Assembly: GCF_001005725.1 (NCBI RefSeq)
Contig: NZ_LBIC01000005.1
Coordinates: 298,001 to 362,000, forward strand
Reading direction: 5' to 3'
DNA length: 64,000 nt
Source: Sphingobium chungbukense
GTDB lineage: Bacteria; Pseudomonadota; Alphaproteobacteria; Sphingomonadales; Sphingomonadaceae
This document shows, in pieces, positions 39,665 to 58,923 of this stretch. Within the stretch, counting starts at the first letter, position 1, and every line of letters begins with the position of its first letter. Made by a program: the position numbers and the translations under genes. The notes under the pieces were generated by a model. It made no database searches. It saw only the letters and a list, made by a program, of their open reading frames with translations, and was not told the DNA's origin.

Positions 39665-40459
39665 ATGGACCTTGGATTGGCAGGCAAGCGCGCGTTGGTG
39701 ACGGGCAGCAGTTCCGGCATCGGCGCGGGGATAGCGCGGCTATTGGCGGCGGAAGGCTGCGCCGTGGTGGTGCATGGTCGCGATGCCGGAAAGGCGCATG
39801 ACGTGGCCGACTCCATCGGCGGCAACGCCAGCGTGGCGATCGGTGATCTTTCCGACAATGCGGGCGCGGATGCGGTCGCGGCGGCAGCGGGGGAGATCGA
39901 CATATTGGTGAACAACGCAGGCGGAGCGGTGGGCACGTCGGCCATGCATTGGACGGAGGTGGACGAAGCGGGTTGGGAGGGCACCTATCAACTCAACGCC
40001 ATTGCCGCCGCCCGCATGATCCGGCGCCTTCTGCCGGCGATGCAGGCGAAGGGGTGGGGCCGCATCATCAACATCGCCAGCGCCGCGGCCACGCAGCCCA
40101 TCGCATTCGGCCCGGATTATGGCGCGGCCAAGGCAGCCATGCTGAACATGACCGTCAGTCTGGCGAAGGCGTTGGGGCCGTGCGGCGTCACCGCGAACAG
40201 CGTCAGCCCCGGCATGATCCTGACCCCGGCGGTCGAGGCCTGGCTGGGCAGGCTCAAGCAGAATATGGGCTGGGGCGACATTTCGCTGGAGGAAGCGGAA
40301 GCGCGCGCCGCGCGCGAGTTGACGCCGATTCCCGTCGGTCGCATCGGCCGTGTCGAGGAGATCGCCCATGCCGTTTGCATGATCGCCAGCCCGCATGCCG
40401 GTTACATGACCGGTGCGAATGTGCGCGTGGACGGCGGCCAGGTGCAGGGCGTGAACTGA
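39665..40459 (+). CDS. Short-chain dehydrogenase/reductase
   Basis: 264 aa, ribosome site ggagac. T-G-S-S-S-G-I-G (13-20), N-N-A-G-G, A-S-A-A-A and Y-G-A-A-K are the classical SDR motifs. H-G-R-D after strand 2 suggests NADP. It is co-transcribed with the EthD-like gene and possibly with the SDR gene at 40619. Confidence 0.9.
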   Translation: MDLGLAGKRALVTGSSSGIGAGIARLLAAEGCAVVVHGRDAGKAHDVADSIGGNASVAIGDLSDNAGADAVAAAAGEIDILVNNAGGAVGTSAMHWTEVDEAGWEGTYQLNAIAAARMIRRLLPAMQAKGWGRIINIASAAATQPIAFGPDYGAAKAAMLNMTVSLAKALGPCGVTANSVSPGMILTPAVEAWLGRLKQNMGWGDISLEEAEARAARELTPIPVGRIGRVEEIAHAVCMIASPHAGYMTGANVRVDGGQVQGVN

Positions 40460-40618: not shown

Positions 40619-41593
40619 ATGACGGATTTACGCTTCGACGGCCGCGTGGCGATCGTCACGGGCGCGGGCAACGGCCTGGGCAGGGATTATGCGCTGGAGC
40701 TTGCCCGGCGCGGCGCGAAGGTCGTGGTCAACGATCTGGGCGGCAGCGGATCGGGGCAGGGGGAATCGCATAATGCGGCGGACCTTGTGGTGCAGGAAAT
40801 TCGCGACGCGGGCGGGGAAGCGGTCGCCAATTATGACAGCGTGTCGACCCGGCAGGGGGGCGCGGCCATCGTCCAGACCGCCCTCGACGCCTTCGGCAAG
40901 GTCGACATCTGCATCAACAATGCGGGCTTCCTGCGCAATGCCCGGTTCGAGGATCTGACCGACGAGCAGATCGACGCGATCATCGACGTGCATCTGAAGG
41001 GGGCGATCTACGTCGCCCAGCCCGCCTATAAGGCGATGCGCCGGAACGGCTATGGCCGGTTCCTTTTCACCGGCTCGGCATCCGCGATGTTCGGCCATGC
41101 CTGGCAGGCCAATTACGCGGCGGCCAAGGGCGGGCTCATAGGTCTCAGCCATATCGTCGCGATCGAGGGATCGGCCTATGGCATCACGTCGAACCTGCTG
41201 CTGCCCACGGCGCAATCGCGATTGGCGGCGGAAATGGATGCCGGTTTCATGGAAATTCCCGCCTTTGCGGAAGCGGTGCAGGGCGCCGATTATGCCGCGA
41301 GCGAGGGCCGTGTCGAAGTGCCCTTCAACACGCCGCTTGCCGTCTATCTGGTCAGCGAACAATGCACCTCCACCCATGGCATCTATTCGCAGAATAGCGG
41401 GCGTTATGCCAAGGTGCGCATCTGCGCCGCGGACGGTTGGGTCGCGCCGATGGGAGTGACGCCGCCTGCCGTGGAGGATATTGCTGCTCATTGGAGCAGC
41501 ATCACGGACGGCGCCATCGCCCATGAACCGCTGACCGTCTATGATGAGTTCACCGCCGTCGCGAAGGCGGCACGGCGCCAGGGGCTGATCTGA
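40619..41593 (+). CDS. SDR, 17-beta-HSD type 4-like
   Basis: 324 aa, ribosome site agaggaaa. T-G-A-G-N-G-L-G-R, N-D-L-G-G, N-N-A-G-F and Y-A-A-A-K are visible, with a long C-terminal tail as in the 35348 SDR. By family it is a 3-hydroxyacyl-CoA or hydroxysteroid-type dehydrogenase. The N-terminal 100 residues of the two are alike while the tails differ, so they are diverged paralogues. Confidence 0.9.
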   Translation: MTDLRFDGRVAIVTGAGNGLGRDYALELARRGAKVVVNDLGGSGSGQGESHNAADLVVQEIRDAGGEAVANYDSVSTRQGGAAIVQTALDAFGKVDICINNAGFLRNARFEDLTDEQIDAIIDVHLKGAIYVAQPAYKAMRRNGYGRFLFTGSASAMFGHAWQANYAAAKGGLIGLSHIVAIEGSAYGITSNLLLPTAQSRLAAEMDAGFMEIPAFAEAVQGADYAASEGRVEVPFNTPLAVYLVSEQCTSTHGIYSQNSGRYAKVRICAADGWVAPMGVTPPAVEDIAAHWSSITDGAIAHEPLTVYDEFTAVAKAARRQGLI

Positions 41594-41635: not shown

Positions 41636-42169
41636 TTATCGATCGCTATAGGGTCCGCCCATGAATTCGCGGTCGAACCGCTGATGCAGGTCGCCCAGCA
41701 GACGGGAAAGCGTCTGCTGGTCGGCAGCGCTGAGTTGGCGGAAGAAGCGGACCAGCTTCGATTGCGCGGCTATGTCGACGATCGCCCGCTCGATCAGCGC
41801 GCGGCCCCTCGGCGTCAGGAACAAATCGAAGGCCCGACGGTCTTCCGGATTGCGGCGCCTTTCCAGCAGGCCGTCTTTTTCCAGCCGCGCTATCCTGGTC
41901 GAGATCACGGCATCGGACACATAGAGGGTGGAGGCGAGATCAGTTGCCCGATGAGGGATGTCCTGGTCGATCGCCAGCGTGCCGAGCAGGTCGAGATCGG
42001 CGAAACTATATCCCAGCTTGCCGGCGATGCTGTCGAGATCGGTCGTGACCAGATGCCCGACCGTGAAGAAATGCCAGAGCGGGCCGAAATGCTCGCTCGC
42101 CATGTCGGGCATATGGCGGGCATAGAAGGAACGGCCGGCATTGAGTTGGTCAACAGGCTTGCGAGGCAT
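41636..42169 (-). CDS. MarR family transcriptional regulator
   Basis: 177 aa. Winged helix with L-A-S-T-L-Y-V-S-D-A-V-I-S-T-R-I-A-R-L-E-K-D-G-L-L-E-R-R, followed by the wing R-N-P-E-D-R-R-A-F-D-L-F-L-T-P-R-G. It lies 47 bp downstream of a P450 gene on the same strand and is probably the last gene of the 48599-41636 run. It would sense a pathway intermediate by inference. Confidence 0.92.
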   Translation of the reverse strand: MPRKPVDQLNAGRSFYARHMPDMASEHFGPLWHFFTVGHLVTTDLDSIAGKLGYSFADLDLLGTLAIDQDIPHRATDLASTLYVSDAVISTRIARLEKDGLLERRRNPEDRRAFDLFLTPRGRALIERAIVDIAAQSKLVRFFRQLSAADQQTLSRLLGDLHQRFDREFMGGPYSDR

Positions 42170-42216
42170 GATATTCGCGCCGTCCTCCTACGCGTAGGGA
42201 AGCGATTGGCCGTGGT

Positions 42217-43452
42217 TCAGGGCCAGCACAGGTCGAGACGGAGCACGCCGTTGACCATGCCCGTCGCCAGCACCGGCTTCGTTCCGGCCTTGATGCGGAA
42301 ATCCGGAATGCGGCTCAGCCATTCCTGAAGGAAAATGCGGATTTCCCGCCGCGCCAGGACTGCCCCAGGGCAGGCATGGGGCCCATTTCCGAACGCCGCA
42401 TGCACCGGCTTTTCCCGGTTGAAATCCACGACGAGTGGATTTTCGTTCACGCGGTCGTCCATGCCAACCCACAGATTGGCGGGCAGGATACGGTCACCCG
42501 CCCGGAAGTTCACACCTCCATATTCAAAGTCTTCGACGATCACGCGTGCCGTATTGGCAAGTCCATGGCGGCGAATCATTTCTTCGATGGCGTGCTTGAC
42601 GAAATCTTCGTCATCCAGCCGTTCGACAAGCTGTCTGCGATGGCCGGGGTTCATTGCCAGGAATCGGGCAATGAACCCGATCATTCCGGCCACGGTGTCC
42701 AATCCGCCGAACAGCACCAGTGTCGAATAGCTGACGGCCTCCATCTCGGAGATTCGGCCATCACCGACATTCACATTGACCAGCTTGCTCAGCAGGTCGT
42801 CTCCGGGATTTTCCCGGCGGGCGCGGATCTTGTCCAGCAGATACCCGCCCATCTCCTGCTGCGCGTTCAGCCGGATCTCGGCTGTATGACCCCGCACCGA
42901 ACGTTCCGCGATCGGCAGCAGGCGATTCTTGTCGGATATGGGCAGGTCCACCAGTTCCAGGAAGACGTGGATGGGGAGAATCTTCGCGAAATCCTCGATG
43001 AATTCGCATTCGCCCTGCGGCAGGACGCGCTCTATCGCCTCTATCGCGACGTCGCGCACCTTGCTTTCGAGTTCCGACACGATCGCCGGCATCAGCGACT
43101 GCATCAACGGACGCCGGTATCGCGCATGTTCGGGCGGGTCCATCTCCAGCGGAATCTGGCGCGGCGTGCCCTCCGGCATGGGGGGCAGGACGATATGCTT
43201 GTGCGAGAAATGATGATAGTCGCGCTGCATCGCGATAATGTCTTGGCCCCGGGTCGCAACCCAGTGACCGCCATTGTGCGGCGTCCAGAAAATGTCGGGA
43301 TTGGCCTGCTGGATCGCCGCATAAGCGGCCTGCACATCCTCTGCCGATCCGGGAACATCGTAGATGTTGAAATCACGCTCCAGCGCGGCCGGTACATGGT
43401 CGGGACGCGGCGCCAACTCGCCTTCGGGCACGCTTGTCATATCAGCGCTCAT
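42217..43452 (-). CDS. Cytochrome P450, CYP101 (P450cam)-like
   Basis: 411 aa from the ATG at 43452, close to P450cam in length. P450cam hallmarks: W-T-P-H-N-G-G-H-W-V-A-T-R-G (56-69), D-P-P-E-H (105-109), I-helix G-G-L-D-T-V with D252/T253, E291-x2-R294, and haem ligand C361 in F-G-N-G-P-H-A-C-P-G. The camphor-binding Tyr96 of P450cam is replaced by Pro97, so camphor itself is an unlikely substrate. The putidaredoxin-like gene lies 124 bp upstream on the same strand and probably feeds it electrons. Confidence 0.92.
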   Translation of the reverse strand: MSADMTSVPEGELAPRPDHVPAALERDFNIYDVPGSAEDVQAAYAAIQQANPDIFWTPHNGGHWVATRGQDIIAMQRDYHHFSHKHIVLPPMPEGTPRQIPLEMDPPEHARYRRPLMQSLMPAIVSELESKVRDVAIEAIERVLPQGECEFIEDFAKILPIHVFLELVDLPISDKNRLLPIAERSVRGHTAEIRLNAQQEMGGYLLDKIRARRENPGDDLLSKLVNVNVGDGRISEMEAVSYSTLVLFGGLDTVAGMIGFIARFLAMNPGHRRQLVERLDDEDFVKHAIEEMIRRHGLANTARVIVEDFEYGGVNFRAGDRILPANLWVGMDDRVNENPLVVDFNREKPVHAAFGNGPHACPGAVLARREIRIFLQEWLSRIPDFRIKAGTKPVLATGMVNGVLRLDLCWP

Positions 43453-43576
43453 TTTCTGTTTCCCTCTCCGAAACTGTCTTGACCCTAGGGAGGGGCGCGG
43501 CAAGGGCGGCGCCCGTCGATGGGCCAGGATTTCACAGATGCGATGGGTCGCGCGGCTCCTGCCGTTCGCCGCCCCC

Positions 43577-43894
43577 TCAATCCTCCGGCGCGATTGCGAC
43601 GCGCAGGCCGTCCAGCTCCGCCGTGAGGGGGATCTGGCAGGACAATCGCGAATGTTCGTCGCGATGCTCCGAACTGTCGAGCAGGTCGCTCTCATCCTCG
43701 CTGATCGCGGGCAACAGGCCGATGAAGGCCGGATCGACCTTCACATGGCAGGTGGCGCAAGAGCAGCAGCCCCCGCAAAGCGCCAGCATTTCGTCGATCC
43801 CGGCATCGCGGATCGCTTCCATCAAGGACAGCCCGGTTTCGGCGGCAATTTCCTTTTCCGCGCCATCGCGGGTCGTGACGATCACATTTGGCAT
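43577..43894 (-). CDS. 2Fe-2S ferredoxin, putidaredoxin-like
   Basis: 105 aa. Cluster ligands C40-x5-C46-x2-C49 and C86 match adrenodoxin/putidaredoxin spacing, and the protein aligns end to end with putidaredoxin by eye. Two additional cysteines (43, 44) sit inside the cluster loop, where putidaredoxin has Ser-Ala. The C-terminal Trp that putidaredoxin uses for P450cam interaction is absent (the chain ends P-E-D). It sits between two P450 genes, 21 bp after the upstream one. No ferredoxin reductase gene is in the window. Confidence 0.93.
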
Positions 43895-43915
43895 ATAGGT
43901 TCCCTTGAATGAAGA

Positions 43916-45157
43916 TCAGTCGCCGAAGCGGACATGGAGATGCTTGGGCACCCGCATCATCGATCCGCGAATTTCGGGTCGCGGCTTGTCCGGGTCGAAG
44001 CGCAGATTGGGCAGGTTATCCAGCACCGCGTGCAGCGCGCGGGTCATCTCCACCCGCGCCAGATGCTGGCCGACGCAGATATGCGGCCCGCGAGAGAAGG
44101 AGAAATGCGCCTTGCGCTCGCGGAATATGTCGAACTTGTCGGGATCGGGGAAGATCGCCGGGTCGCGATTGGCCGCGCCCGCCACCACGTCGAGCAGCGA
44201 TCCGGCCGGAATCTCCACGCCGCCGAGCACCACATCCACCTTCGCCATGCGAAGCTGCACGGCCACGGGACCGTCCCAGCGCAGCGCTTCCTCGATCGCG
44301 ACGGGGATGAGTTTGCGGTCCGCCCGGATGGCGTCGAGCTGTTCGGGATTCTCCAACAGCGCGGTCAACAGCACGCTGGTCCCGCGATAGGTGGTGTCGC
44401 CAGCCGCGTTCATCAATTGCCGCAGGAAGGAGATCAGCACCAGGGGCGGCAGATAATCGCCGTCCACTTCGGTATTGGCGAGCAGGCTGACCAGATCGTC
44501 GCCCGGATTGCGCCGCCGTTCCTCGACCAGGGCGGTGAAATACTCGCCCAGCTTGCGGGATGCCTCCTGCGCCTTGTCGATGTGCATATAGTCGGTCTGG
44601 CCAATGGCCAGCCGCTGAAAAGTGCGGACATCCGATTCCGGCAGATCGAGCTGCTGATAGATGACTTCGAAAGGATAGAGCAGCGTGAATTGTTCGATGA
44701 GATCGGCGCTGCCGGTGTCCACGAATTTGTCCATCAACTTGTGAACCACCGGATCGACGATGGTTTCGCCCCATGTTTTCACATATTGGGGCAGGAATAT
44801 CTTCTGGAAGATCTTCCGCCAGCGGCCATGTTCGGGATTGTCCATGACGCTGATGCTGCCCTGGCCGAACGTCTCGCCGATGTTGAACTTATAGCCATGG
44901 TTGGAGAAGCGGTCGGTGTCGGTCAGGACCGTCAATATCTCGTCCGAACCGACGACCGTGAACATCCTGCGATCGGGATAGGTGGCGGATTGCAGGCCCA
45001 TTTTCGGGCGGTAGTCGCCCTCCAGAACCGGGGCTTGCGCCCGCCATTTCGCGATCTCCGGATAGGGGTCCAGCGTATCTCCGAAATTGATGTCGTCCGC
45101 GCTGAACGGATCGTAGCTCGGATCGTCATATTCCTGAATCTTGACGGCGGTTTCCAT
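43916..45157 (-). CDS. Cytochrome P450, not CYP101-like
   Basis: 413 aa. I-helix A-G-D-T-T (252-256), E290-x2-R293 and C361 in F-S-R-G-P-H-I-C-V-G-Q-H-L-A-R are intact. It lacks the G-G-H-W-x-x-T-R segment of the other four P450s and starts with a longer N terminus (M-E-T-A-V-K-I-Q-E-Y-D-D-P), so it is from another bacterial family. It is in one operon with the ferredoxin, and an operator-like repeat lies 17 bp upstream of its start. Confidence 0.92.
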   Translation of the reverse strand: METAVKIQEYDDPSYDPFSADDINFGDTLDPYPEIAKWRAQAPVLEGDYRPKMGLQSATYPDRRMFTVVGSDEILTVLTDTDRFSNHGYKFNIGETFGQGSISVMDNPEHGRWRKIFQKIFLPQYVKTWGETIVDPVVHKLMDKFVDTGSADLIEQFTLLYPFEVIYQQLDLPESDVRTFQRLAIGQTDYMHIDKAQEASRKLGEYFTALVEERRRNPGDDLVSLLANTEVDGDYLPPLVLISFLRQLMNAAGDTTYRGTSVLLTALLENPEQLDAIRADRKLIPVAIEEALRWDGPVAVQLRMAKVDVVLGGVEIPAGSLLDVVAGAANRDPAIFPDPDKFDIFRERKAHFSFSRGPHICVGQHLARVEMTRALHAVLDNLPNLRFDPDKPRPEIRGSMMRVPKHLHVRFGD

Positions 45158-45173
45158 GGCCGGAATCTCTCCT

Positions 45174-45191
45174 ATGCAGTATATGCTACAT
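45174..45191. promoter_or_regulatory. Imperfect palindrome, candidate TetR operator
   Basis: ATGCAGTATATGCTACAT matches its own complement at 14 of 18 positions. The core TGCAG-N6-CTACA recurs at 50996-51011 upstream of a TonB receptor. It lies in the 54-bp gap between the TetR and P450 genes. Confidence 0.55.
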
Positions 45192-45211
45192 AAGTCCGCC
45201 TGCCGGTGCTG

Positions 45212-45826
45212 TCAATCGAGCGGTGGCCCCACCAGCGACTGGGCGATCAATTGCTCCAGCACGTCCAGCACGGCTTCACGGCCCGGCGGGTCGGGAAAGA
45301 GCGCGTCGCGCAGGATCACGCTGGCGGCGATCATGCCAAAGCCCAGCCGCACGCCGATACCCAGGTCGAAAGGCGGATCGATTTCCGCGAGCGCATAGCG
45401 CCGGCGGACCTGATCGACCGACTGTTCGAAAAAGGGAGCAAGTCCGCGCAAACCCGGCGCCGCATCTTCGCCAGCGCTCGGTGGTCCGGCGAGGAGGGCA
45501 CGGAACATCGCCTCATTGCCCTCGAACAATTCATAGACCTGCCGGGTGAAGCGGCGCGTCTCCGCCTGTCGGGGGAATGGAGCGGTGGGATCGGGATGCA
45601 GTTCCACGAAGTCCGCCATCAGCGTGTGGAACGGCGCGATCACCACCTCATTGAACAGCCCGGCCTTGTCGCGATAATAGCGGAACAGCAAGGTCTCGCT
45701 GACATCGGCCAGACGCGCGATTTCCCGCGTCGTGGTGCCGCCATAGCCGCGCTCCGCGAACAATTGCCGCGCCGCGTCGCAGATGCGCTGGACCACGTCC
45801 TCGCGTGTACGCCGCCGCCGCCGCAC
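45212..45826 (-). CDS. TetR/AcrR family transcriptional regulator
   Basis: 204 aa, GTG start at 45826; the true start may be slightly upstream because the frame stays open into the GMC gene. N-terminal helix-turn-helix Y-G-G-T-T-T-R-E-I-A-R-L-A-D-V-S-E-T-L-L-F-R-Y-Y at about 26-49. It lies between GMC and P450 genes on the same strand. The repeat just after it and at 50996 is its proposed binding site, by proximity only. Confidence 0.85.
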   Translation of the reverse strand: MRRRRRTREDVVQRICDAARQLFAERGYGGTTTREIARLADVSETLLFRYYRDKAGLFNEVVIAPFHTLMADFVELHPDPTAPFPRQAETRRFTRQVYELFEGNEAMFRALLAGPPSAGEDAAPGLRGLAPFFEQSVDQVRRRYALAEIDPPFDLGIGVRLGFGMIAASVILRDALFPDPPGREAVLDVLEQLIAQSLVGPPLD

Positions 45827-45869
45827 GCGCCCGCCATCTTCGGCGGAGGCGGTTTCGTCTGTCAGGATT

Positions 45870-47465
45870 TTAGCGATTGCGCTCCTCCAAGATCATGTCG
45901 GCCGCATTCCAGGCCGACGCCATGATCGGCCCGTTGGTATTGGCCGAAACCATCGTAGGCATGATCGATCCATCCATGACGCGCAAGCCGTCCACGCCCT
46001 TCACGCGCAGTTTTTCGTCCAGGACCGCATCGGCGAAATCCCCCATGCGGCAGGTTCCGCAGGCATGATAGCCTGCCTGGCCGATCTGGCGGAAGGCGGA
46101 GAGGATTTCATCGTCGGTCTGGAGCGAACGGGTCGGCTCCCGCTCTCCCGCGATCATCGGGGCGATGGCGGGACGGGACATCCAGTCGCGCAGATAGCGG
46201 TGCATCGCCACGGTGACCGCGCAATCATAGGGATCGGTAAGGTAGCCCGCCCGAATTTTGGCCTGAGCCATAGGGTCGGCTGCCGTGATCCGCACCGACC
46301 CTTCACTGCGTGAACGCAGGGGATAGCCGAACAGGGTGATGCTGTGCGCCGGATCGATGGCCATATTGCCCTTTGCATCCGGTGCCGCGACGGCGGGCGA
46401 CAGCAGGATTTCGATGTCGGGCGTCTCCGATTCCGGCAGCACGGTCGCAAAGGCGCCGACATTGCCATATCCCGCCGCCATCGGCCCGGTGCGAGTGAGA
46501 TAATAGCGCAGCACGTTGCCGATCAGTTTCAGGCCCGCCAGATCCTTGTTCTGACTATGCGGAACGGCAAGGTCATAGACCATCGAAAGCAGGCGATGTT
46601 CCAGCATATGTTCGCCCACGCCCCGATTGTCGGCAACGACGGGGATGCCAAGATCGCGCAGCAGTTCGGCAGAGCCGACGCCCGAGCGCTGAAGGATTTG
46701 CGGCGACATCAGCGCGCCGGCGCTGACGATGATTTCGCGCCCGCTTGCGAAGTCCTGGGCCGCCCCGTTCACATTGGCGCGAACGCCGGTTGCGCGGCGG
46801 TCGGTGAACAGGATCTTGTCGACAATCGCGCCGGTGACGACGCGCAGATTGGTCCTGCCGCGCGCGCGCTTGAGGAAGGCTTGCGCCGCACTCTGCCGCT
46901 TGCCCTTCCATATGGTGCGCGGGGCATAGCCGACGCCGGCACGGCCAGACCGGTTGAGGTCGGTAACACGCGGCAAGCCCATCTGTTCACCCGCTGCGAT
47001 GAAGGCTTCGGTCAGCGGGTCACGTATCGGCTCGACCGAGATGCGGAGAGGACCGTCGCCGCCGCGCACCTCGTCGCCGCCCAGCTCGTGGCCTTCCATC
47101 GCGCGGAAGGCCGCGCCGATCCTGTTCCATCCCCAGCCCTTGGCGCCAAGGGCTTCCCACCCGTCATAATCTTCGGGCTGACCACGGAAATACATCATGC
47201 CGTTGACCGAGGACGAGCCGCCCAGCATCTTGCCGCGTATCCAGGTTTCCGGGGGAATGGCTTCATGCCGTTCGGTCTGGAAATACCAGACATGCCGGGG
47301 GTCGGTGTAGAGCTTCGCGGCGCCGCGCGGCATGTGGATGAAGGGGTTGCGGTCGTCCGGCCCTGCCTCCAGCAACAGCACGCTGTTCGCCGGATTTTCC
47401 GACAGGCGGTCCGCCAGCACGCATCCGGCGGAGCCGCCGCCGACGATGATATAGTCGTAAGTCAT
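45870..47465 (-). CDS. GMC family (choline dehydrogenase-like) flavoprotein
   Basis: 531 aa from the ATG at 47465. FAD-binding G-G-G-S-A-G (9-14), the GMC signature G-K-M-L-G-G-S-S-S-V-N-G and the C-terminal catalytic pair (His in Y-H-A-C-G-T-C-R, Asn in S-A-N-T-N-G-P) are present. It oxidises an alcohol to an aldehyde or ketone, probably passing electrons to the respiratory chain. The stop of the upstream serine hydrolase and this ATG share a base (TGATG). It is a candidate for oxidising a P450 hydroxylation product. Confidence 0.92.
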   Translation of the reverse strand: MTYDYIIVGGGSAGCVLADRLSENPANSVLLLEAGPDDRNPFIHMPRGAAKLYTDPRHVWYFQTERHEAIPPETWIRGKMLGGSSSVNGMMYFRGQPEDYDGWEALGAKGWGWNRIGAAFRAMEGHELGGDEVRGGDGPLRISVEPIRDPLTEAFIAAGEQMGLPRVTDLNRSGRAGVGYAPRTIWKGKRQSAAQAFLKRARGRTNLRVVTGAIVDKILFTDRRATGVRANVNGAAQDFASGREIIVSAGALMSPQILQRSGVGSAELLRDLGIPVVADNRGVGEHMLEHRLLSMVYDLAVPHSQNKDLAGLKLIGNVLRYYLTRTGPMAAGYGNVGAFATVLPESETPDIEILLSPAVAAPDAKGNMAIDPAHSITLFGYPLRSRSEGSVRITAADPMAQAKIRAGYLTDPYDCAVTVAMHRYLRDWMSRPAIAPMIAGEREPTRSLQTDDEILSAFRQIGQAGYHACGTCRMGDFADAVLDEKLRVKGVDGLRVMDGSIMPTMVSANTNGPIMASAWNAADMILEERNR

Positions 47466-48599
47466 CACAGGGCCGCCCGGATCACATCGCCGATGATGGT
47501 GCGGCTGTCTTCTGCGATATCGATCGTATCGAACATGCGGTTGTGGCAGATGCCGACGGCCAATTTGGTTTCAGGGTCCGCCCAGCCGATATTGCCGCCC
47601 ATGCCCGGATGGCAGAGCGCGCGCATGTTGCGAGGGGCGGAGACCGGAGGGTTTTCCGCGCCGCCCAGCCAGAAGCCCGACCAGGCGATGGGCACGACCA
47701 TGCCGAAGAAGACGGGATCGGCATCCTCGAAATGCGGGCGCGGGGCGGCGAAGCTGGCGACGCGTTCCTCCGACAGCAGGCGCACGCCGTTGAATTGCCC
47801 GCCATTGGCCAGCATCGCCCAGAAGCGGGCGTTGCTCCGCGCGCTGAAGATGCCGCCGACGGCCGGAATGCACGCGCGGCGCACATAGGGCCGCTCGAAC
47901 GGATCGGGCATCAGGTCGACGACCAGCGGCTGCGCCTCCCGCATCATATTATTGTCGGGAGCGACATAGACGGCGGCGGCGTCCAGCTTGGCGATGCGTG
48001 GCTCGACGGAATCGGGGATGCCCATCCACAGATCGGCGGCGCCCAGCGGGTCCGCTATCTCCTCCTTGATGAACTGGCCGAAGGGGGCGGCGTTTGGGAT
48101 CGGTCCTGCGGACCACTTCGCCCACCATCCAGCCGAAGGTCATCGACTGGTAGGAGGAACGGCTGCCGGCGGGATAGACCCCCTCCATCTCCGCGATGCG
48201 GCGGCACATCCAGTCCCAGTTGGTCATCAGTTCGGGCGTCACGTCCGGCGGCATGCGCAGCACGCCGGAGACATGGGACAGGATGTGGCGGATGGTGACG
48301 TCCCCCTTTCCGGCCTGGGCAAATTCGGGCCAGTAGGTGGCGACGGGCGCATCATAGTCCACCAGGCCCCTTTCGGCCTGGATATGCAGGGCGGTGGCGG
48401 TCACGGCCTTCGACACGGAATAGACGTTGAACAACGTGTCGCCATCGACCGGCCTGCCGGTGGTCGCGTCAGCGAGGCCCGACCAGCAATCGACAATCTG
48501 TTCCTCGCCCAGCCAGGCGCTGACCTGAATGCCGATTTCCTTGCCCTCCGCGACAAGCCGGTCCAGCATCTCCTGCACCGCGTCGTTGACCTTCGTCAT
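47465..48599 (-). pseudogene. Serine hydrolase (beta-lactamase/esterase EstB family), frameshifted
   Basis: The N-terminal part, from the ATG at 48599, has the catalytic S61-V-S-K64 motif and Y-x-S at Y-Q-S-M-T-F-G. After P-K-R-R-P the frame goes astray at a run of five C (48083-48087, read as G on the plus strand). Removing one base restores F-G-Q-F-I-K-E-E-I-A-D-P-L-G-A-A-D-L-W and joins the rest (M-G-I-P-D-S-V-E-P onward to 47465). Intact, it would be about 377 aa, normal for this esterase family. It is either a real inactivating mutation or a homopolymer sequencing error. It is the first gene of the GMC/TetR/P450 run. Confidence 0.88.
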
Positions 48600-48640
48600 C
48601 CTTCCAATCGCCTTTCCTGCTTGCCATGGCGTCGACGCCA

Positions 48641-48664
48641 GCTATCAAGTGTGTGCTTGATAGC
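48641..48664. promoter_or_regulatory. Perfect 9-6-9 inverted repeat, operator between divergent genes
   Basis: GCTATCAAG-TGTGTG-CTTGATAGC sits in the 90-bp gap, 25 bp from the start of the 6-oxocamphor-hydrolase-like gene and 41 bp from the start of the serine hydrolase operon. Its position lets one repressor silence both. Candidate regulators are the TetR (45212) and MarR (41636) proteins of the operon. Confidence 0.7.
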
Positions 48665-48689
48665 ACGGAAAAGGACGAGGGAAAGAGAG

Positions 48690-49439
48690 ATGGGCCAGGC
48701 GTTCGAAAATATCATAATGACGCACGATGACGGGATCGTCGAACTGCGCATCCACCATCGCGGCGGCTCGGCCAAATGGGCGCTCTGGGGTGGCCTGCAC
48801 AAGGAATTGGGCATTGCCTTCGCGCACATCGCTGCCGATCCCGACGCCCGGGTGCTGCTGATCACCGGCACGGGCGACACATTCTGTGCTGAGTTCGACA
48901 TGGATTGCGACATGCCGCAAATGGGCGGAGCAAGCTGGGACGTGATCTTCCGGGAGGGCAGGGCACTGCTCAACAATCTGTTGGCCATAGAGATACCGGT
49001 CGTGGCCGCCGTCAATGGACCCGCTTTCATCCATGCGGAGATCGCGCTGCTGGCCGATGTCGTGCTGGCGGCGGAGGGTGCTGCCTTCGCCGATAAGCCG
49101 CACGCTCTTGCCGGTGTGGTGCCGGGCGATGGCGTGCACAGCATATGGCCGATGCTGCTGGGGCCGAATCGTGGCCGTTATTTCCTGATGACGGGGCAGG
49201 AGATCGGCGCGCAGGAGGCCCTGACGCTGGGCCTGGTAGGCGAAATACTGTCACCTGACGTCCTGATGCCCCGCGCGCGCGAACTGGCCCGTACGATCGC
49301 AGCCCGGCCGGCGGTCGCCAATCGCTATACCCGTATCCTGCTCACCCGCGATATCAGGGCGCGATTGGCGACTGAACTGGATCAGGGCCTGGCAATGGAG
49401 GGCATGGCGATCCTTGCAGCCATGCAAGGACAGGCCTGA
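48690..49439 (+). CDS. 6-oxocamphor hydrolase-like crotonase (beta-diketone hydrolase)
   Basis: 249 aa, ribosome site aaagagag. It resembles Rhodococcus 6-oxocamphor hydrolase from end to end (R-A-L-L-N-N-L-L-A-I-E, G-V-V-P-G-D-G, L-G-P-N-R-G-R-Y-F-L-M-T-G-Q-E). H115, H138 and D147 occupy the places of that enzyme's His122, His145 and Asp154, with E117 following H115 in the same way. That enzyme adds water to a cyclic beta-diketone and breaks a ring carbon-carbon bond, without CoA. Neighbouring P450, ferredoxin and GMC genes could make such a diketone. The exact substrate is unknown. Confidence 0.85.
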   Translation: MGQAFENIIMTHDDGIVELRIHHRGGSAKWALWGGLHKELGIAFAHIAADPDARVLLITGTGDTFCAEFDMDCDMPQMGGASWDVIFREGRALLNNLLAIEIPVVAAVNGPAFIHAEIALLADVVLAAEGAAFADKPHALAGVVPGDGVHSIWPMLLGPNRGRYFLMTGQEIGAQEALTLGLVGEILSPDVLMPRARELARTIAARPAVANRYTRILLTRDIRARLATELDQGLAMEGMAILAAMQGQA

Positions 49440-49443
49440 GCCG

Positions 49444-49466
49444 CTCTTCGCTCATCCGGAGAAGAG
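49444..49466. terminator. Weak hairpin between convergent genes
   Basis: CTCTTC / GAAGAG arms with an 11-base loop in the 42-bp gap between the crotonase and P450 genes. The stem is short. Confidence 0.35.
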
Positions 49467-49481
49467 GCCAGTCGGAATCGC

Positions 49482-50690
49482 TCAGACAATCCAACTCAGA
49501 TGGAGCGATTCCATGGAATTCACCAGTCCCGTGGTCATCTTCGGCGGCTTGCCGGGGGTGAGCCGGAAATCGGGGATACGGGCCAGCCATTCTTCCAGAA
49601 AGATGCGGATTTCGCGCCGGGCCAGATTGTTGCCGATGCAAGTATGTACCCCGGTGCCGAAGGCCAGATGCCGCCGTCCCTTGCGGGTGAAGTCGAGCGT
49701 CATCGGATCGGGATTGATCGTCTCGTCCAAGCCGGCAGCTGGAAAGATGCCCACTATCATGTCGCCCTTGCGAAGTTCGGCACCGCCCAGGCTGGTGTCT
49801 TCACGCGCGATGCGACCCAGATTGCTCGTCCCGAACCGGCGAGCGATCTCCTCCGGCGCATCATTCATATAGTCCGGATTTTCGATCAGTTCCCGCCGCT
49901 TTTCGGGATGTTGCGCAAGGTAGCAAGCGGCAAAGCTGGTCATCGACACCACGGTATCGAGGCCGCCGCCGACGACAACCAGGCTCATGCTGAAGATTTC
50001 CTCATCCGTCATCTTCCGACCGCCGACATCCGCCTGAATCATCGAACTGATGAGGTCATCCTGCGGCTCCTTCTTGCGCAATTCTATATGATGGCGAACA
50101 TAATCCGAGACTTCGGACCAGGCTTGTGGAGACTTGGGATGAGTCGGCTTCGACATGTAGATCGCGAGCCCGCGTAGATAGGAATAGTCTTCCTCCGGCA
50201 AGTTGACGAGCGTGAGAAAGGCGACGATGGGCATCGTCCCGGCAAAATCCTCGACGAACTCGCATTCGCCCTGCGGCCTGATCCGCTCGATAATCTCGAC
50301 GGCGGCCCTGCGTGCCCGGTCCGTGGCCGCGGCCAGCATCCTGGGAGTGAAGGCCGGCATCAGCAATTTGCGGAACTTCATATGATCCGGCGGGTCGAGT
50401 TGCACCGGCAGTTGCAGCGGCAAGGTGTTGCGGGGCAGGAAGGGTTCGGAACTGGAGAATGCGGCGAATTCCCGCAGCATGCGTTCAATCTCATTATAGC
50501 GTGTCGCGATCCAGTGCCCGCCATGATGCGGCGTCCAAAAGACCGGCGGATTGCTGTCCTGCACAGTCTTCCAGAGCGCATGGACGTCGTGCGTCGTCCG
50601 TCCTTCAATGCCCGGTGGGGCATAGATATCGATATCCCGCACCAAATCGGGGGGAACATGACTCGGAACGGCCTGCGCGACTTGCGGCAT
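49482..50690 (-). CDS. Cytochrome P450, CYP101-like
   Basis: 402 aa. F-W-T-P-H-H-G-G-H-W-I-A-T-R (51-64), D-P-P-D-H (99-103), G-G-L-D-T-V with D245/T246, E281-x2-R284 and C351 in F-G-T-G-V-H-T-C-I-G. The Tyr96 position of P450cam is Pro91. It stands alone on its strand, with its own operator-like repeats 48-73 bp upstream (50738-50763), so it is likely controlled separately from the P450 pair at 42-45 kb. It is convergent with the 6-oxocamphor-hydrolase-like gene. Confidence 0.92.
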   Translation of the reverse strand: MPQVAQAVPSHVPPDLVRDIDIYAPPGIEGRTTHDVHALWKTVQDSNPPVFWTPHHGGHWIATRYNEIERMLREFAAFSSSEPFLPRNTLPLQLPVQLDPPDHMKFRKLLMPAFTPRMLAAATDRARRAAVEIIERIRPQGECEFVEDFAGTMPIVAFLTLVNLPEEDYSYLRGLAIYMSKPTHPKSPQAWSEVSDYVRHHIELRKKEPQDDLISSMIQADVGGRKMTDEEIFSMSLVVVGGGLDTVVSMTSFAACYLAQHPEKRRELIENPDYMNDAPEEIARRFGTSNLGRIAREDTSLGGAELRKGDMIVGIFPAAGLDETINPDPMTLDFTRKGRRHLAFGTGVHTCIGNNLARREIRIFLEEWLARIPDFRLTPGKPPKMTTGLVNSMESLHLSWIV

Positions 50691-50737
50691 CGGAATATCC
50701 TCTCACCTGCGCCCTGCATTCCTGGCGCTCCCCACAC

Positions 50738-50763
50738 TTATAGGTACTTTATAGGACCTATAA
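50738..50763. promoter_or_regulatory. Repeated TTATAGG operator-like sites
   Basis: TTATAGG occurs at 50738 and again at 50749, 11 bp apart (one helical turn); the second copy forms a perfect 7-1-7 palindrome, TTATAGG-A-CCTATAA (50749-50763). They lie upstream of the P450 start at 50690, where a repressor would block transcription. Confidence 0.55.
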
Positions 50764-50995
50764 TGTTGTGACGCAAGTCTTCACAGGCCCATCATATCCG
50801 CAGACACCACTATTGAGAGAAAGGTTCGCGATGAAATCGTGCGTGAAATCTTCCTTCTCTGCCACAGTCGATAAATCATATTCATGATCGTTGGGATCGA
50901 AGGGCTGCGTGCCCTCCTCCTCTCCGCCGCGCCCCACGGGCACTATGACGATGAAAGCCCGGCCTCTTCTCCCATCATGTTGCATGCATATATTG

Positions 50996-51011
50996 TGTAG
51001 TAATCACTACA
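50996..51011. promoter_or_regulatory. TGTAG-N6-CTACA operator-like repeat
   Basis: TGTAGT-AATC-ACTACA is perfect and lies 45 bp upstream of the TonB receptor start. It shares 11 of 16 bases with the site next to the TetR gene (core 45175-45190). Confidence 0.6.
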
Positions 51012-51056
51012 TTGATAACGGAATGCCGATCAAATCCATAAATCAGGGAGATTCGA

Positions 51057-53453
51057 ATGAGAGGGTGCAGCAGGACTTTTCACGGCATGCTTTTGGGTTG
51101 CAGCGTTCTGGCGGGTGTTCCGGCAGCGGCCATGGCGCAGCAGCCGGGTGCAGCGGACGCGCGCCCAGCGAATGACGACATCGTCGTCACCGCCCGCCGA
51201 CGCGAAGAACGTCTGCAGGATGTTCCGGTCGCGGTGACGGCGCTGGGCGCAGCCGCGATCGAGCGGCAGGGCGTCGTCAGCGTGCAGGATATCCGCCGTA
51301 TTGCGCCCTCCACCAATGTCAGCCAGAGCGCGGGCGGTGGCCGCCAGATCCCGCTCTTCACCATCCGTGGCCAGCGCCAGGGCGACACCCTGGCTTCGGT
51401 CGATCCTTCGGTCGGCATCTATATCGGCGATCAGCTGTTCAAGCGCACTTTCGGTGTCGACCAGGTGGCCTTCGACCTCGCCTCGGTCGAAGTGCTGAAG
51501 GGTGCCCAAGGTACGCTGTTCGGTCTCAACGTGACGGGCGGCAACATCATATTCCGCCCCGCACTGCCGACTGACGACTTCGGGGCTTCGGTGATGGTCG
51601 GCATCGGCAATTTCGACGATCGAAAGATCGAGGGTTATGTCAATATTCCGCTTGGCGAAGGCGCGGCGCTGCGTGTGGCGGGACGTTATGAGAAGCGCGA
51701 CGGCTATATCCGCGTTACCCGGCGCGACGGTGCCGATATGCCCCGGCCTGAGTTCAAGGACGGGCAGCAGACATATAGCCCAGGCGGTAGGCGGGAGGAT
51801 GCGCAGGACCTCGATGGTGGTGCGTTCCGGATATCGCTGAAGCTGAATCCCACGGACAATCTCGAATCCGTCTTCTCGGGCAACTACATGCGCTCCGGCA
51901 CGAACGGCTCGGGCTTTCGGATGACCGAATTCGTTTCACCGAGCACTTTGACCGCGCTGCAAACGCTGCCGGTCGTGCAGGCCGCTTATGACGACAGCCA
52001 GGCCCTTGGATTCTACGAAGCGCGATCCAATGTTCGTTCCTATGCGAAGACGTCGCCTGCCTGGAACATCACCAATACGACCAGCTATCATATAAGTGAT
52101 GCCGTCACGCTCAAGAACATCATCGGATATCGTCGTTACAAGACCAAAAACTTCGAAAATATCGACGGATCCGATCTCCGATACATGGAATATGGCACCA
52201 ATCAGAATGGCCGAGAATTTTCCGAGGAATTCCAGATCGTTGGTACGACCGATGAACTCGACTGGATCGTCGGGGCCTATTATATGCAAGAAAAGGTTCG
52301 GGCCTTTTCCAACTCGATCTCACTTCTCGCACCCTCGTTCGATGCGTTTCAGACACCCTATAACGTGTTCGAGAATGTGAAGAACAGGACCAAGTCGGTC
52401 TTCGGGTCCGCCACACAGAAGCTGGACAATATAACCGGGGGCCTGTCGCTGACTTTGGGCGGCCGCTATACCTGGGACACGCGCCAGGCGGAATATGGCA
52501 CCATTTACCTCATCGGTCAGCCGGGCCAATATTGCGGTTTCGGAGCCGATGTCGCCGCCGCACCGGGCAATCCCTATGATTTCGATCCAGCGACATGTCT
52601 GGTGAACAGGAAGAAGACATTCTCCAAATTCACCTATACCGCGACCCTGGACTGGAAGGTCAGCCAGGATCTGCTGGTCTATTTCTCCAATCGAAAGGGT
52701 TATCGCGCCGGCGGATGGGGCACGCGCGCGCAGTCGGCGGCACAATTGGTCCCGTTCAATCCGGACACGGTCGTCGATTTCGAACTGGGCGCGAAATATA
52801 ATCACCGTTTCGGCAATGGCGGATCGGTGACGGTCAACGCCGCGCTTTATCGGTCGAATTATTCCGATATCCAGCGGCTCGTCCCCTACCAGGATCCGGT
52901 CACGAAGCTGGTCTTCACCAATGTCGTCAACGCGGCCAATGCGCGCATCCAGGGATTTGAACTGGAAACCACGTTGCGGCCGAACCGGTTCATCGAATTG
53001 AGCGGCTTTCTGTCGCACACCGACCCCAAATATAAGAGATTCGACATCTTCGACTCCGCGACCGGCACGACGCAGAACGTCGCCGCGGTGGCCGACTTCT
53101 CGGGCGTGTCGCGCTGGCAATATGGGCTGACCGGCCGGTTGTCGTCGGAACTGGGTTCGATCGCGGAGGAAGGCGCCGTGCAGCTCACCTGGTATCACCA
53201 GTCGAAGTTCAATATCCAGGATCGGCCCTACAGGTCGCTCTATGGCGTGACGCCGGGCTATGGCTTGCTGAACGGACGCGTGGAGTTGAACAAGTTATCC
53301 GGCCAGAACATCAACGCAGCCTTTTTCGTCAATAACCTGCTCGACAGGAAATATGAGGTGGCAAATTATTCGTTGGAGCGTGAGATCGGCTTCTCCTCCC
53401 GGCTGGTAGGCGCTCCGCGCATGTATGGGCTGGAAGTGCGCTTCACATATTGA
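51057..53453 (+). CDS. TonB-dependent outer-membrane receptor
   Basis: 798 aa. Signal peptide ends near A-M-A-Q (28), TonB box D-D-I-V-V-T-A at 40-46, plug motif V-L-K-G-A-Q-G-T-L-F-G-L-N-V-T-G-G (the usual G-R-N is G-L-N here) and C-terminal R-F-T-Y. By context it imports the substrate of the P450 module. The operator at 50996 suggests co-regulation with the P450/ferredoxin operon. Confidence 0.93.
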   Translation: MRGCSRTFHGMLLGCSVLAGVPAAAMAQQPGAADARPANDDIVVTARRREERLQDVPVAVTALGAAAIERQGVVSVQDIRRIAPSTNVSQSAGGGRQIPLFTIRGQRQGDTLASVDPSVGIYIGDQLFKRTFGVDQVAFDLASVEVLKGAQGTLFGLNVTGGNIIFRPALPTDDFGASVMVGIGNFDDRKIEGYVNIPLGEGAALRVAGRYEKRDGYIRVTRRDGADMPRPEFKDGQQTYSPGGRREDAQDLDGGAFRISLKLNPTDNLESVFSGNYMRSGTNGSGFRMTEFVSPSTLTALQTLPVVQAAYDDSQALGFYEARSNVRSYAKTSPAWNITNTTSYHISDAVTLKNIIGYRRYKTKNFENIDGSDLRYMEYGTNQNGREFSEEFQIVGTTDELDWIVGAYYMQEKVRAFSNSISLLAPSFDAFQTPYNVFENVKNRTKSVFGSATQKLDNITGGLSLTLGGRYTWDTRQAEYGTIYLIGQPGQYCGFGADVAAAPGNPYDFDPATCLVNRKKTFSKFTYTATLDWKVSQDLLVYFSNRKGYRAGGWGTRAQSAAQLVPFNPDTVVDFELGAKYNHRFGNGGSVTVNAALYRSNYSDIQRLVPYQDPVTKLVFTNVVNAANARIQGFELETTLRPNRFIELSGFLSHTDPKYKRFDIFDSATGTTQNVAAVADFSGVSRWQYGLTGRLSSELGSIAEEGAVQLTWYHQSKFNIQDRPYRSLYGVTPGYGLLNGRVELNKLSGQNINAAFFVNNLLDRKYEVANYSLEREIGFSSRLVGAPRMYGLEVRFTY

Positions 53454-53462
53454 TCTGCGAAG

Positions 53463-53512
53463 CATGAGCCATGAAGGGACCGGCTGGTGACGGGCGGTCC
53501 CTTCCACTCATG
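53463..53512 (+). terminator. Strong stem-loop terminator
   Basis: Perfect 10-bp arms GAAGGGACCG / CGGTCCCTTC (53473-53504), extended by CATGAG / CTCATG across a small internal loop, 9 bp after the receptor stop. No T-tract follows. Confidence 0.75.
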
Positions 53513-53631
53513 TCGCCCATCCTGTTGCAGATGGGCGTCTGTCATCGATGCTGTGATCGCTTTCCCCAAGCTCTTGTCGTCGCATCATGGGCGGCATTAG
53601 CGCTGTGCGCCTTTCCACCGGTGGCAACAGG

Positions 53632-54573
53632 ATGACGAACATGCGCGAAGACAGGAAAAAGGCGTTCCGAAATGCCTTGGGCAATTTTGCGACAGGCGTG
53701 ACGATCGTCACGACGCGCGATGAGCATGGTCGACCGGTCGGGCTGACCGCCAGCAGCTTCAACAGCGTCTCGCTCGATCCGCCCATGGTGTTGTGGAGCC
53801 TTGCGCTGGAAAGTCCGAACATGGCCGCCTTTCGGCGGGCGAGTGGATGGGCGGTCCATATCTTGTCGGCGGATCAGGAAGAGCTGTCCAATCGTTTCGC
53901 GACGCGCGGGATAGACAAGTTCGCCGGTCTGGACATCCAGGATGGGCCGGAGGGAGCGCCCTTCATCGCCAACTGCGCTGCGCGTTTCGGATGTCGTCCG
54001 ACGTTCGAATATGATGGGGGCGACCATGCGATCTTCGTGGGGGAAGTGATCGACTTTGTTCATAGCGAGCGTGCGCCGCTGCTATTTCATGGCGGCAAAT
54101 ATGGCCAGGTCGCCGCAAAGGCGCCGGCGGTTCGTCCGGACCGGATCGATCAGGACGGCGCGTTCGGCCGCTATTTCATCGGTCACCTGCTTCATCGCGC
54201 CCATAATGCGGCCTTTGCCGAATTGCGGCGGGAATATCGGCGCAGAGGCTTGCGATCCTCCGAATATACGGTTCTCGTTTCGCTCGGCCTGGGCGATGGG
54301 TGCACGCGAGACGCGTTGCTCGCCCGCGCCGCGAATGGCGGGGTCGACCTGCCCCTGGAGGCGATCGAACAGCTTTTGGCGCGCGGCCATCTCGTGACCG
54401 AAGGCGAAATGCTTCACCTTAGCGCGGCAGGGCGCCAGATGCTGACGGAATTGATGGCGGTTGCCCAGGCGGTCCAACTGCATTTCGAAGACAGCCTGAC
54501 CCTGGCCGAAATGACGCAGTTGAACCACCTGCTTCGGCGCCTGTCGGAGGTCGCGCCAAGGGGCCGTCATTGA
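53632..54573 (+). CDS. Flavin reductase with C-terminal MarR-like domain (two-component monooxygenase reductase)
   Basis: 313 aa from the ATG at 53632; ATGs at 53587 and 53641 are also possible. The N-terminal flavin reductase domain has R-N-A-L-G-N-F-A-T-G-V-T-I-V-T-T and L-T-A-S-S-F-N-S-V-S-L-D-P-P-M-V. Residues from about 185 on form a winged-helix MarR-like domain (L-R-S-S-E-Y-T-V-L-V-S-L, L-T-E-L-M-A-V-A). The layout is that of the reductase C1 of Acinetobacter 4-hydroxyphenylacetate hydroxylase, whose MarR-like domain senses the substrate. It should supply reduced flavin to an oxygenase, but no flavin-dependent oxygenase gene is in the window. Confidence 0.87.
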   Translation: MTNMREDRKKAFRNALGNFATGVTIVTTRDEHGRPVGLTASSFNSVSLDPPMVLWSLALESPNMAAFRRASGWAVHILSADQEELSNRFATRGIDKFAGLDIQDGPEGAPFIANCAARFGCRPTFEYDGGDHAIFVGEVIDFVHSERAPLLFHGGKYGQVAAKAPAVRPDRIDQDGAFGRYFIGHLLHRAHNAAFAELRREYRRRGLRSSEYTVLVSLGLGDGCTRDALLARAANGGVDLPLEAIEQLLARGHLVTEGEMLHLSAAGRQMLTELMAVAQAVQLHFEDSLTLAEMTQLNHLLRRLSEVAPRGRH

Positions 54574-54612
54574 CGGCACCCGTCGACGCTTCCCCGCAAC
54601 AGGGCAGCGGTT

Positions 54613-55386: not shown

Positions 55387-55426
55387 TGGGGGCTCCCGGG
55401 ATGTGGATGGGTGGAAGGGGCGGGGA

Positions 55427-56647: not shown

Positions 56648-56670
56648 CGTCATCTCTCCCGGTCTTCGAT

Positions 56671-58910: not shown

Positions 58911-58923
58911 CCCTATTTTCCCT

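Follow-up and report, generated by a model that had tools for sequence, protein, structure and literature searches.

Among the crotonases, a small known group cleaves beta-diketones without coenzyme A (CoA). 6-Oxocamphor hydrolase (OCH) of Rhodococcus (1o8u, 1szo) and the Anabaena beta-diketone hydrolase ALR4455 (ABDH; 2j5g, 2j5s) are the only solved members of this group among the best 60 of 173 PDB matches of the protein described here, and an EchA15-type protein (3q1t) has been proposed as a further beta-diketone hydrolase in PMC3584854. A ring 1,3-diketone would also be cleaved hydrolytically in the anaerobic 2,3-seco pathway of steroids; a 2019 review (PMC6678751) calls the ring hydrolase of its testosterone route unidentified. 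We analysed a 64,000-nucleotide stretch of Sphingobium chungbukense DNA (contig NZ_LBIC01000005.1, positions 298,001 to 362,000; hereafter the window), in which a crotonase gene at 48690 lies among cytochrome P450, ferredoxin and GMC flavoenzyme genes. A first-pass annotation of this stretch had compared the crotonase to OCH and predicted a cyclic beta-diketone as its substrate. We consider it fairly probable that the protein is a CoA-independent hydrolase of the OCH group and that it belongs to one regulon which builds and cuts an alicyclic 1,3-diketone, most likely from a polycyclic, steroid- or terpenoid-like compound. Protein family, active site, predicted fold, synteny, a shared palindrome and the genomic island around the module were computed.

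Using phmmer against the PDB (all figures refer to the best 60 of 173 rows), OCH came out as the nearest solved relative (1o8u, 2.4e-69; the OCH mutant 1szo, 6e-68), followed by ABDH (2j5g, about 5e-60), and the next protein was EchA15 (3qk8, 7.2e-25). OCH and ABDH are thus separated from the remaining crotonases by a clear gap, in sequence as well as in predicted fold. The AlphaFold2 model (predicted local distance difference test (pLDDT) 79.9, predicted template-modelling score 0.81, 9 sequences) matched 1szo best (Z 31.0, root mean square deviation 2.3 over 240 residues), then 1o8u (30.8), 2j5g (30.1) and 2j5s (29.9), with 3rrv as the next entry (27.3); a poorer first model (5 sequences, pLDDT 59) gave the same top four matches. 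The first-pass annotation had placed H115, H138 and D147 at catalytic positions of OCH, and the MAFFT alignment bears this out. W30, H37, H115, H138, D147 and E237 correspond to W40, H45, H122, H145, D154 and E244 of OCH, a match at all six positions compared, so that the His-Asp pair (OCH H145, D154) and the further His and Glu residues (H45, H122, E244) are all present.

Residue conservation was counted over 41 OCH-group rows, comprising 26 of the 28 matches from the window's family (two further copies in genome G017 were omitted), 4 from the phylum, 3 others and 8 plasmid rows hand-picked from 42 plasmid records; OCH and ABDH themselves stand outside the 41, and six rows (five duplicates of places already represented, one crotonase seen twice) had been removed before. 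H115 is found in 40, H138 in 40, D147 in all 41, E237 in 39 (one spurious, genome G114), H37 in 37 and W30 in 29 of these rows. In 24 other crotonases the H115 place is always Gly (His in 0/24), His138 and Asp147 have counterparts in 4 each, and both occur together in 3. Judged by these two sets, the agreement of H115, H138 and D147 with OCH is not a product of chance. His138 replaces the second Glu of enoyl-CoA hydratase (rat Glu164), a place mapped through PMC3584854. The place of the first (rat Glu144) is taken by Glu117, which is retained in 40 of the 41 group rows, in OCH and in ABDH, and therefore does not discriminate the OCH group from hydratases. Each group row reached at least 150 bits and at least 37% identity to the window protein, versus at most 105 bits for each of the remaining crotonases. 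The window's genome contains 15 crotonase matches at E ≤ 1e-5; only the 48690 protein is of the OCH type, the other 14 lying at 1.9e-20 or weaker. Pfam assigned ECH_1, and NCBIfam gave no name (best model 117 versus a cut-off of 292). That is, on sequence and predicted fold the protein is a member of the OCH/beta-diketone hydrolase group of CoA-independent crotonases, and CoA-free retro-Claisen cleavage is its likely chemistry. The earlier prediction of a cyclic beta-diketone cleaved without CoA is supported as far as the likely chemistry is concerned; that such a diketone arises as an intermediate we infer.

The group is far wider than its solved members. Its proteins were detected (E ≤ 1e-40) in 24 of 397 genomes sampled from the window's family and in 5 of 398 sampled from the phylum, the window's genome included in both, and 42 plasmid records contained them at E ≤ 1e-30. 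An OCH-like enzyme in a sphingomonad, to which the first-pass annotation had drawn attention, is confirmed. In the tree, camphor OCH clusters (100/98) with four sphingomonad proteins and one from a Rhodococcus plasmid, whereas ABDH belongs to a different set (100/98). The window protein groups at 100/99 with its counterparts in S. fuliginis, S. chlorophenolicum and three genomes of the Rhizorhabdus group, a clade that has no characterised member among the proteins compared. The window protein falls outside the clade of Rhodococcus OCH in this tree, and a constraint joining the two groups was weakly rejected in the approximately unbiased (AU) test (p = 0.024, an optimistic value, since the groups were named only after the tree was seen). 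A single clade of all eight module-borne OCH-group proteins was not rejected (p = 0.24).

The open reading frame (ORF) table and Pfam/NCBIfam scans confirmed the P450, ferredoxin and GMC genes around the crotonase as previously described (Table 1). In addition, a serine hydrolase (esterase), unnamed in the earlier annotation, lies between the GMC and OCH genes, and the last 4 bases of the esterase ORF are shared with the GMC ORF. The order MarR-P450a-ferredoxin-P450b-TetR-GMC-esterase-OCH is retained at 57–96% identity in five relatives (S. fuliginis DSM 18781, S. chlorophenolicum NBRC 16172, Rhizorhabdus histidinilytica/G174, G220 and G114). The Rhizorhabdus group carries a short-chain dehydrogenase (SDR) inside the module, the ferredoxin was not found at the same-order locus of G114, and neither P450_49482 nor the TonB-dependent receptor at 51057 has a counterpart with the module in the five relatives. 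In Paraburkholderia sprentiae, one block holds P450b (58%), GMC (48%), OCH (47%) and esterase (56%), and the GMC and OCH genes as annotated have 4 bases in common; close to it are a ferredoxin, an FAD-dependent oxidoreductase that is probably the ferredoxin's reductase, SDRs and another P450, this one of the CYP101 type (49% to P450_55427). One stretch of G538, from another family of the same phylum, contains esterase (56%), OCH (53%), GMC (48%) and P450b (62%) together with an SDR, a CYP101-type P450, a ferredoxin and a relative of SDR40619 (55%). Since the set is reshuffled in these two genomes, the gene association survives reshuffling, and the P450/ferredoxin/GMC/esterase/OCH neighbourhood forms a real unit. 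P450b (E ≤ 1e-90) was found in 7 of the 397 family genomes, 5 of which, all but G206 and G265, carry an OCH-group gene as well, and an Azospirillum relative shows 55% identity. Four P450b paralogues were seen in G346 (contigs C34, C45, C70 and C75), where the module seems to be multiplied; in the three stretches read, esterase, rubredoxin and alpha-keto acid dehydrogenase E1 genes stand beside P450b on C45, and a rubredoxin gene on C70.

The 90 bases between the divergent esterase and OCH genes hold a perfect palindrome, TATCAAG-N6-CTTGATA. Palindromes in this promoter and before P450b were found at 6 of 6 same-order loci, the window included. With a matrix made from the esterase/OCH sites, the P450b site was the best remaining site in a 240-kb island around the module (21.6) and the best other site in 5 of 5 relatives' loci (16.9–27.3), against a background of at best 13.5 in 274 kb of 14 other loci. 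The reverse matrix, made from the P450b sites, recovered the OCH sites at 19.9–24.1 (background 12.8); within the island the OCH site ranked just behind site 50994 (21.0). Both matrices contain the window's own sites, and cross-prediction between the two site sets is the independent part of this result. Site 50994 reached 19.2 with the joint matrix, where the maximum over 20 Markov copies of the window was 12.5, and 16.6 with the OCH matrix, moderately above the 13.5 of the background. In G206, which has related P450b, TetR and GMC genes without OCH, a site lies between P450b and TetR (21.8). As the palindrome occupies both promoters of all six same-order loci, co-regulation of the esterase/OCH and P450b genes through this predicted operator is very likely, with the TetR regulator at 45212 as its probable binder. 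Together with the conserved synteny, the shared site supports the functional link between the crotonase and the P450/ferredoxin/GMC genes that had been proposed earlier. A fourth, weaker operator-like palindrome (16.2) was seen at C5:225993 of the window's contig, in or near the start of a 763-residue ORF.

We compared 41 P. sprentiae cluster proteins with this island (C5:180001-420000, 240 kb of the window's contig) by tblastn. At 1e-20, 32 of the 41 had a match, many belonging to large families such as SDRs and crotonases, and nine had none, among them MaoC, a CoA ester lyase, the FAD-dependent oxidoreductase and rubredoxin. More specific matches were a 3-ketosteroid-delta1-dehydrogenase (KstD; 52%), Rieske proteins (53% and 49%), alpha-keto acid dehydrogenase E1/E2 (66–70%) and a crotonase (59%), besides acyl-CoA dehydrogenases (57% and 41%), CaiB (54%), thiolase (62%), amidohydrolase (about 60%), OYE (51%) and NTF2 (59%). 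The KstD-like protein of the island passes NCBIfam NF009478 (854.6 versus a cut-off of 789), and its best solved match is the 3-oxosteroid 1-dehydrogenase 7p18 (1.5e-104), which we take to be AcmB of Sterolibacterium. By sequence, the KstD expected of a steroid cluster is present, about 71 kb from the OCH gene on the same contig; this distance is about 42 kb in G174, G220 and G114, 31 kb in G538, about 28 kb in S. fuliginis and 17 kb in P. sprentiae. A KstD-like gene is located directly beside the OCH-group gene in G320 and G362 (the mechanical ORFs overlap by 4 bases in G320), and G322 has, next to OCH, an SDR and a protein of FAD_binding_2, the Pfam family of the G320 KstD. Azospirillum sp. 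B510 shares KstD, E1, Rieske, ligase, esterase, P450b and GMC genes with the island. Taken as a whole, the surrounding cluster resembles an island for steroid/terpenoid-like catabolism, not a camphor operon.

Two more specific assignments of the island were considered. A canonical 9,10-seco steroid cluster could not be established, no search having been aimed at a ring dioxygenase; KstD is present, and the single Rieske protein searched of the two has phthalate dioxygenase 9jp5 as its best PDB match and is not KshA-like by the listed matches. No link to sapogenin catabolism in Sphingobium was found, the terms 'P450', 'esterase' and 'enoyl-CoA' being absent from the available main text of PMC10653915; the available part of PMC6563040 contains no crotonase. 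The island also encodes an EchA15-like crotonase outside the window (C5:268671-269504, L093:8671-9504, minus strand; best PDB match 3q1t), in which the H37, H138, D147 and E237 positions are retained and Gly occupies that of His115; judged from these residues it is a candidate second C-C hydrolase.

Oxidising enzymes are also common around OCH-group genes elsewhere. A P450, GMC, KstD, PQQ-dehydrogenase, molybdenum (Mo) enzyme or Rieske gene lay within 6 kb at 23 of 40 OCH loci versus 1 of 20 control stretches (p = 5e-5, for six classes selected after the neighbourhoods were seen), and at 15 of 32 loci when the 8 module loci were left out (p = 0.001). The 40 loci include these 8 related ones and some contigs below the 12-kb span; the controls, each 19.9 kb long, were taken at round coordinates from 10 genomes. 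On a Pseudonocardia plasmid (L066 9001-13190), genes for a three-subunit enzyme of the xanthine-dehydrogenase type come directly after the OCH-group gene; such a layout would fit the making of a 1,3-diketone by hydration and oxidation. Relatives (about 40%) of a Mo enzyme adjoining OCH in N. pentaromativorans occur near OCH at loci L043 and L045, and a molybdopterin oxidoreductase of the window (10800-12983, minus strand) is 35% identical to it.

What reaction takes place on the native substrate, in which order the steps follow and to what class the substrate belongs, we infer as follows. P450b or P450a, served by the ferredoxin, would hydroxylate a carbon beside a ring ketone, and the GMC flavoenzyme or an SDR would oxidise the alcohol to a ketone, giving a 1,3-diketone. 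By analogy with OCH, His138-Asp147 would activate a water molecule that attacks one carbonyl of the alicyclic diketone, while His37, His115, Glu237 and Trp30 would hold and polarise it; these residue roles are our assumption from OCH. A retro-Claisen break would then open the ring to a keto acid, and the esterase may free or trim an ester before or after this cleavage. The substrate is most likely polycyclic because the module belongs to an island with a KstD-like enzyme. A broader idea, which we regard as doubtful, is that OCH-group proteins are widespread ring-opening hydrolases for polycyclic 3-keto compounds and that the module is an aerobic counterpart of anaerobic hydrolytic A-ring opening, in which the KstD-like enzyme or the P450/GMC route would introduce the 1,3-diketone into a ring of a steroid- or triterpenoid-like skeleton. 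If true, the OCH family would be the first candidate for the missing A-ring hydrolase of anaerobic testosterone breakdown.

Several observations weigh against the proposed regulon and its polycyclic substrate. Taken singly, only P450s are enriched near OCH below 0.05 (0.011; GMC 0.056, Mo 0.19, Rieske 0.19, KstD 0.29, PQQ 0.44), and the later choice of the six classes counts here too. A KstD relative lies within 6 kb at only 3 of the 40 OCH loci, and its adjacency in G320 and G362 is a single event, these being close relatives. About 71 kb separate KstD and OCH in the window's genome, and a large island may house more than one pathway; in G322 the two genes are about 92 kb apart, in S. chlorophenolicum and G288 they lie on different contigs, and no KstD relative was found at 1e-90 in G237 or the N. 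pentaromativorans plasmid. Small cyclohexanones, too, are substrates of KstD-type flavoenzymes (seen among the weaker matches of the KstD model scan). The palindrome was not found, at any comparable score, in the P. sprentiae, G538 or Azospirillum stretches. An OCH-group gene is absent from the Azospirillum B510 plasmid (best 5e-28) and from G206 and G265 (best about 1e-23), all of which bear P450b with island genes, so OCH is not an obligatory step. In G114 (L045 9038-9574) the OCH frame is lost for the last third, after about residue 178, although the remaining module is retained. The esterase is frame-broken in the window's assembly. It spans two overlapping frames, with one extra base in a C run relative to S. 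fuliginis and S. chlorophenolicum, where it is uninterrupted; beyond the break its differences from S. fuliginis still fall mostly on third codon positions (7/4/36), so that the break is either very recent or an assembly error.

It is unlikely, but deserves consideration, that the diketone is made elsewhere, for example by delta1-desaturation and hydration of a ring ketone, with the P450s, GMC enzyme and esterase merely co-regulated and responsible for other steps. Desaturation, hydration and oxidation would supply the diketone as in anaerobic 2,3-seco steroid breakdown, and hydration routes to 1,3-diketones are described in PMC6678751 and PMC6208644. In G320 and G362 the KstD-like gene adjoins OCH, and neither a P450 nor a GMC gene was found there within 6 kb; Mo-enzyme genes adjoin OCH in Pseudonocardia and N. 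pentaromativorans. In the module genomes, however, the immediate partners of OCH are GMC, P450b and esterase and not KstD, the GMC and OCH genes overlap in P. sprentiae, and the Pseudonocardia Mo large subunit, the only hydratase probe used, found no relative in the 240-kb island at 1e-15.

Catabolism of a bicyclic, camphor-like monoterpenoid, in which P450 and GMC enzymes would make a bicyclic beta-diketone for the OCH-like hydrolase, appears quite unlikely. It would agree with OCH being the nearest solved relative (best 60 of 173; predicted fold), with the CYP101-type P450s nearby, with a ferredoxin whose relative 3lxf is presumably Arx of Novosphingobium aromaticivorans, and with the esterase, which would suit a monoterpenyl ester. 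But the enzyme lies outside the camphor-OCH clade, and the conserved island carries KstD-like, Rieske, alpha-keto acid dehydrogenase and acyl-CoA genes. Membership of the CYP101 family takes about 40% or more identity to its members, and identities to P450cam are 40.3% (42217), 40.1% (49482), 38.7% (55427) and 38.3% (57669). Tyr96 of P450cam anchors camphor; at its place these four P450s have P, P, P and I (for P450_49482 the residue depends on the alignment) and P450b has a gap, so that none of the CYP101-type P450s of the window has the tyrosine, as noted in the first-pass annotation. The comparison it drew with Rhodococcus camphor metabolism is not supported, and we reject a camphor operon on the tree, the missing Tyr96 and the KstD-bearing context. 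The four CYP101-type P450s, mutually 40-48% identical, are located within 17 kb (42217-58946) together with the unrelated P450b.

It is very unlikely that the protein only resembles OCH and is in fact a common CoA-dependent crotonase, whether a hydratase, an isomerase or a C-C hydrolase at the thioester level. The crotonase fold, the ECH_1 match, the plentiful CoA-thioester genes of the island and Glu117 (present likewise in OCH and ABDH) might point to this, but in such an enzyme one would not expect His115 in place of the usual Gly (His in 0/24), His138 at the second hydratase Glu, or two known CoA-free diketone hydrolases as nearest solved proteins (best 60 of 173; predicted fold).

Of the remaining window features, the start of P450a is most likely at 43437, because the 492-residue ORF would overlap the ferredoxin gene. 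We take the esterase to be a family VIII-type carboxylesterase. An APH/EcKL-type phosphotransferase (34269-35351, plus strand) is related to proteins of the G538 (51%) and G346 (35%) islands.

Table 1. Module genes, flanking genes and predicted operator sites in the window
Feature	Coordinates	Strand	Basis
OCH-group beta-diketone hydrolase (predicted), 249 residues	48690..49439	+	PDB matches, six active-site residues, predicted fold
MarR regulator, retained beside the module in same-order loci	41636..42169	-	Pfam/NCBIfam
P450a, CYP101-type, Pro at the P450cam Y96 place	42217..43437	-	alignment to P450cam
2Fe-2S ferredoxin, best solved relative 3lxf (4e-45)	43577..43894	-	Pfam, PDB search
P450b, not CYP101 (23%), module hallmark	43916..45157	-	alignment to P450cam, relatives
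Second palindrome copy (predicted operator), upstream of P450b-ferredoxin-P450a	45173..45192	.	predicted operator
TetR regulator, retained with the module in same-order loci	45212..45826	-	Pfam, synteny
GMC flavoenzyme	45870..47468	-	ORF table, Pfam
EstA/LipL-like serine hydrolase (esterase), frame-broken	47465..48599	-	Pfam/NCBIfam, relatives
Palindrome TATCAAG-N6-CTTGATA (predicted operator), divergent esterase/OCH promoter	48643..48662	.	predicted operator
P450_49482, CYP101-type, not retained with the module in relatives	49482..50690	-	synteny, alignment
Third, weaker operator-like site (candidate), upstream of TonB 51057	50994..51013	.	matrix score
TonB-dependent receptor, not retained with the module; third operator-like site upstream	51057..53453	+	Pfam, synteny
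SDR40619, retained beside the module, inside it in the Rhizorhabdus group	40619..41593	+	Pfam, synteny
SDR, adjoins the module in the two Sphingobium loci	39665..40459	+	Pfam, synteny

Synteny and the shared palindrome give an OCH-group enzyme concrete partner genes, namely P450s, a GMC flavoenzyme and an esterase; the literature search, which covered few subscription papers, found no such regulon in a KstD-bearing island. The chemistry predicted for terpenoid or steroid catabolism is that saturated rings are converted to 1,3-diketones and then opened by hydrolysis. Enantioselective diketone-cleaving enzymes are useful biocatalysts.

Compared with the known systems, the window protein is closest to OCH, with 49% identity over 238 aligned residues, a predicted fold at Z 31 and all six active-site residues alike; it differs in belonging to a separate clade and in a loop after W30 that is two residues longer, and the nearest locus seen in the OCH clade, that of Rhodococcus sp. 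008, has another gene neighbourhood. ABDH shares 44% identity over 234 residues, the same His/His/His/Asp/Glu set and the fold (Z 30), but is found in a different clade and has Phe at the Trp30 place. EchA15-type proteins come next, 3qk8 at only 7e-25 (best 60 of 173), and 3q1t has a His-Asp-Glu plus His44 set in common with ABDH, according to PMC3584854. P450a shares 40.3% identity with P450cam but lacks Tyr96, and P450b is not a CYP101 enzyme. With the anaerobic 2,3-seco pathway (AtcABC), in which a ring 1,3-diketone would likewise be cleaved hydrolytically after a delta1-dehydrogenase, the island shares an analogy only, as no AtcABC-like enzyme was found there with the Pseudonocardia Mo large subunit as sole probe. 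For the A-ring hydrolase called unidentified in PMC6678751, the OCH group is nevertheless a family to consider.

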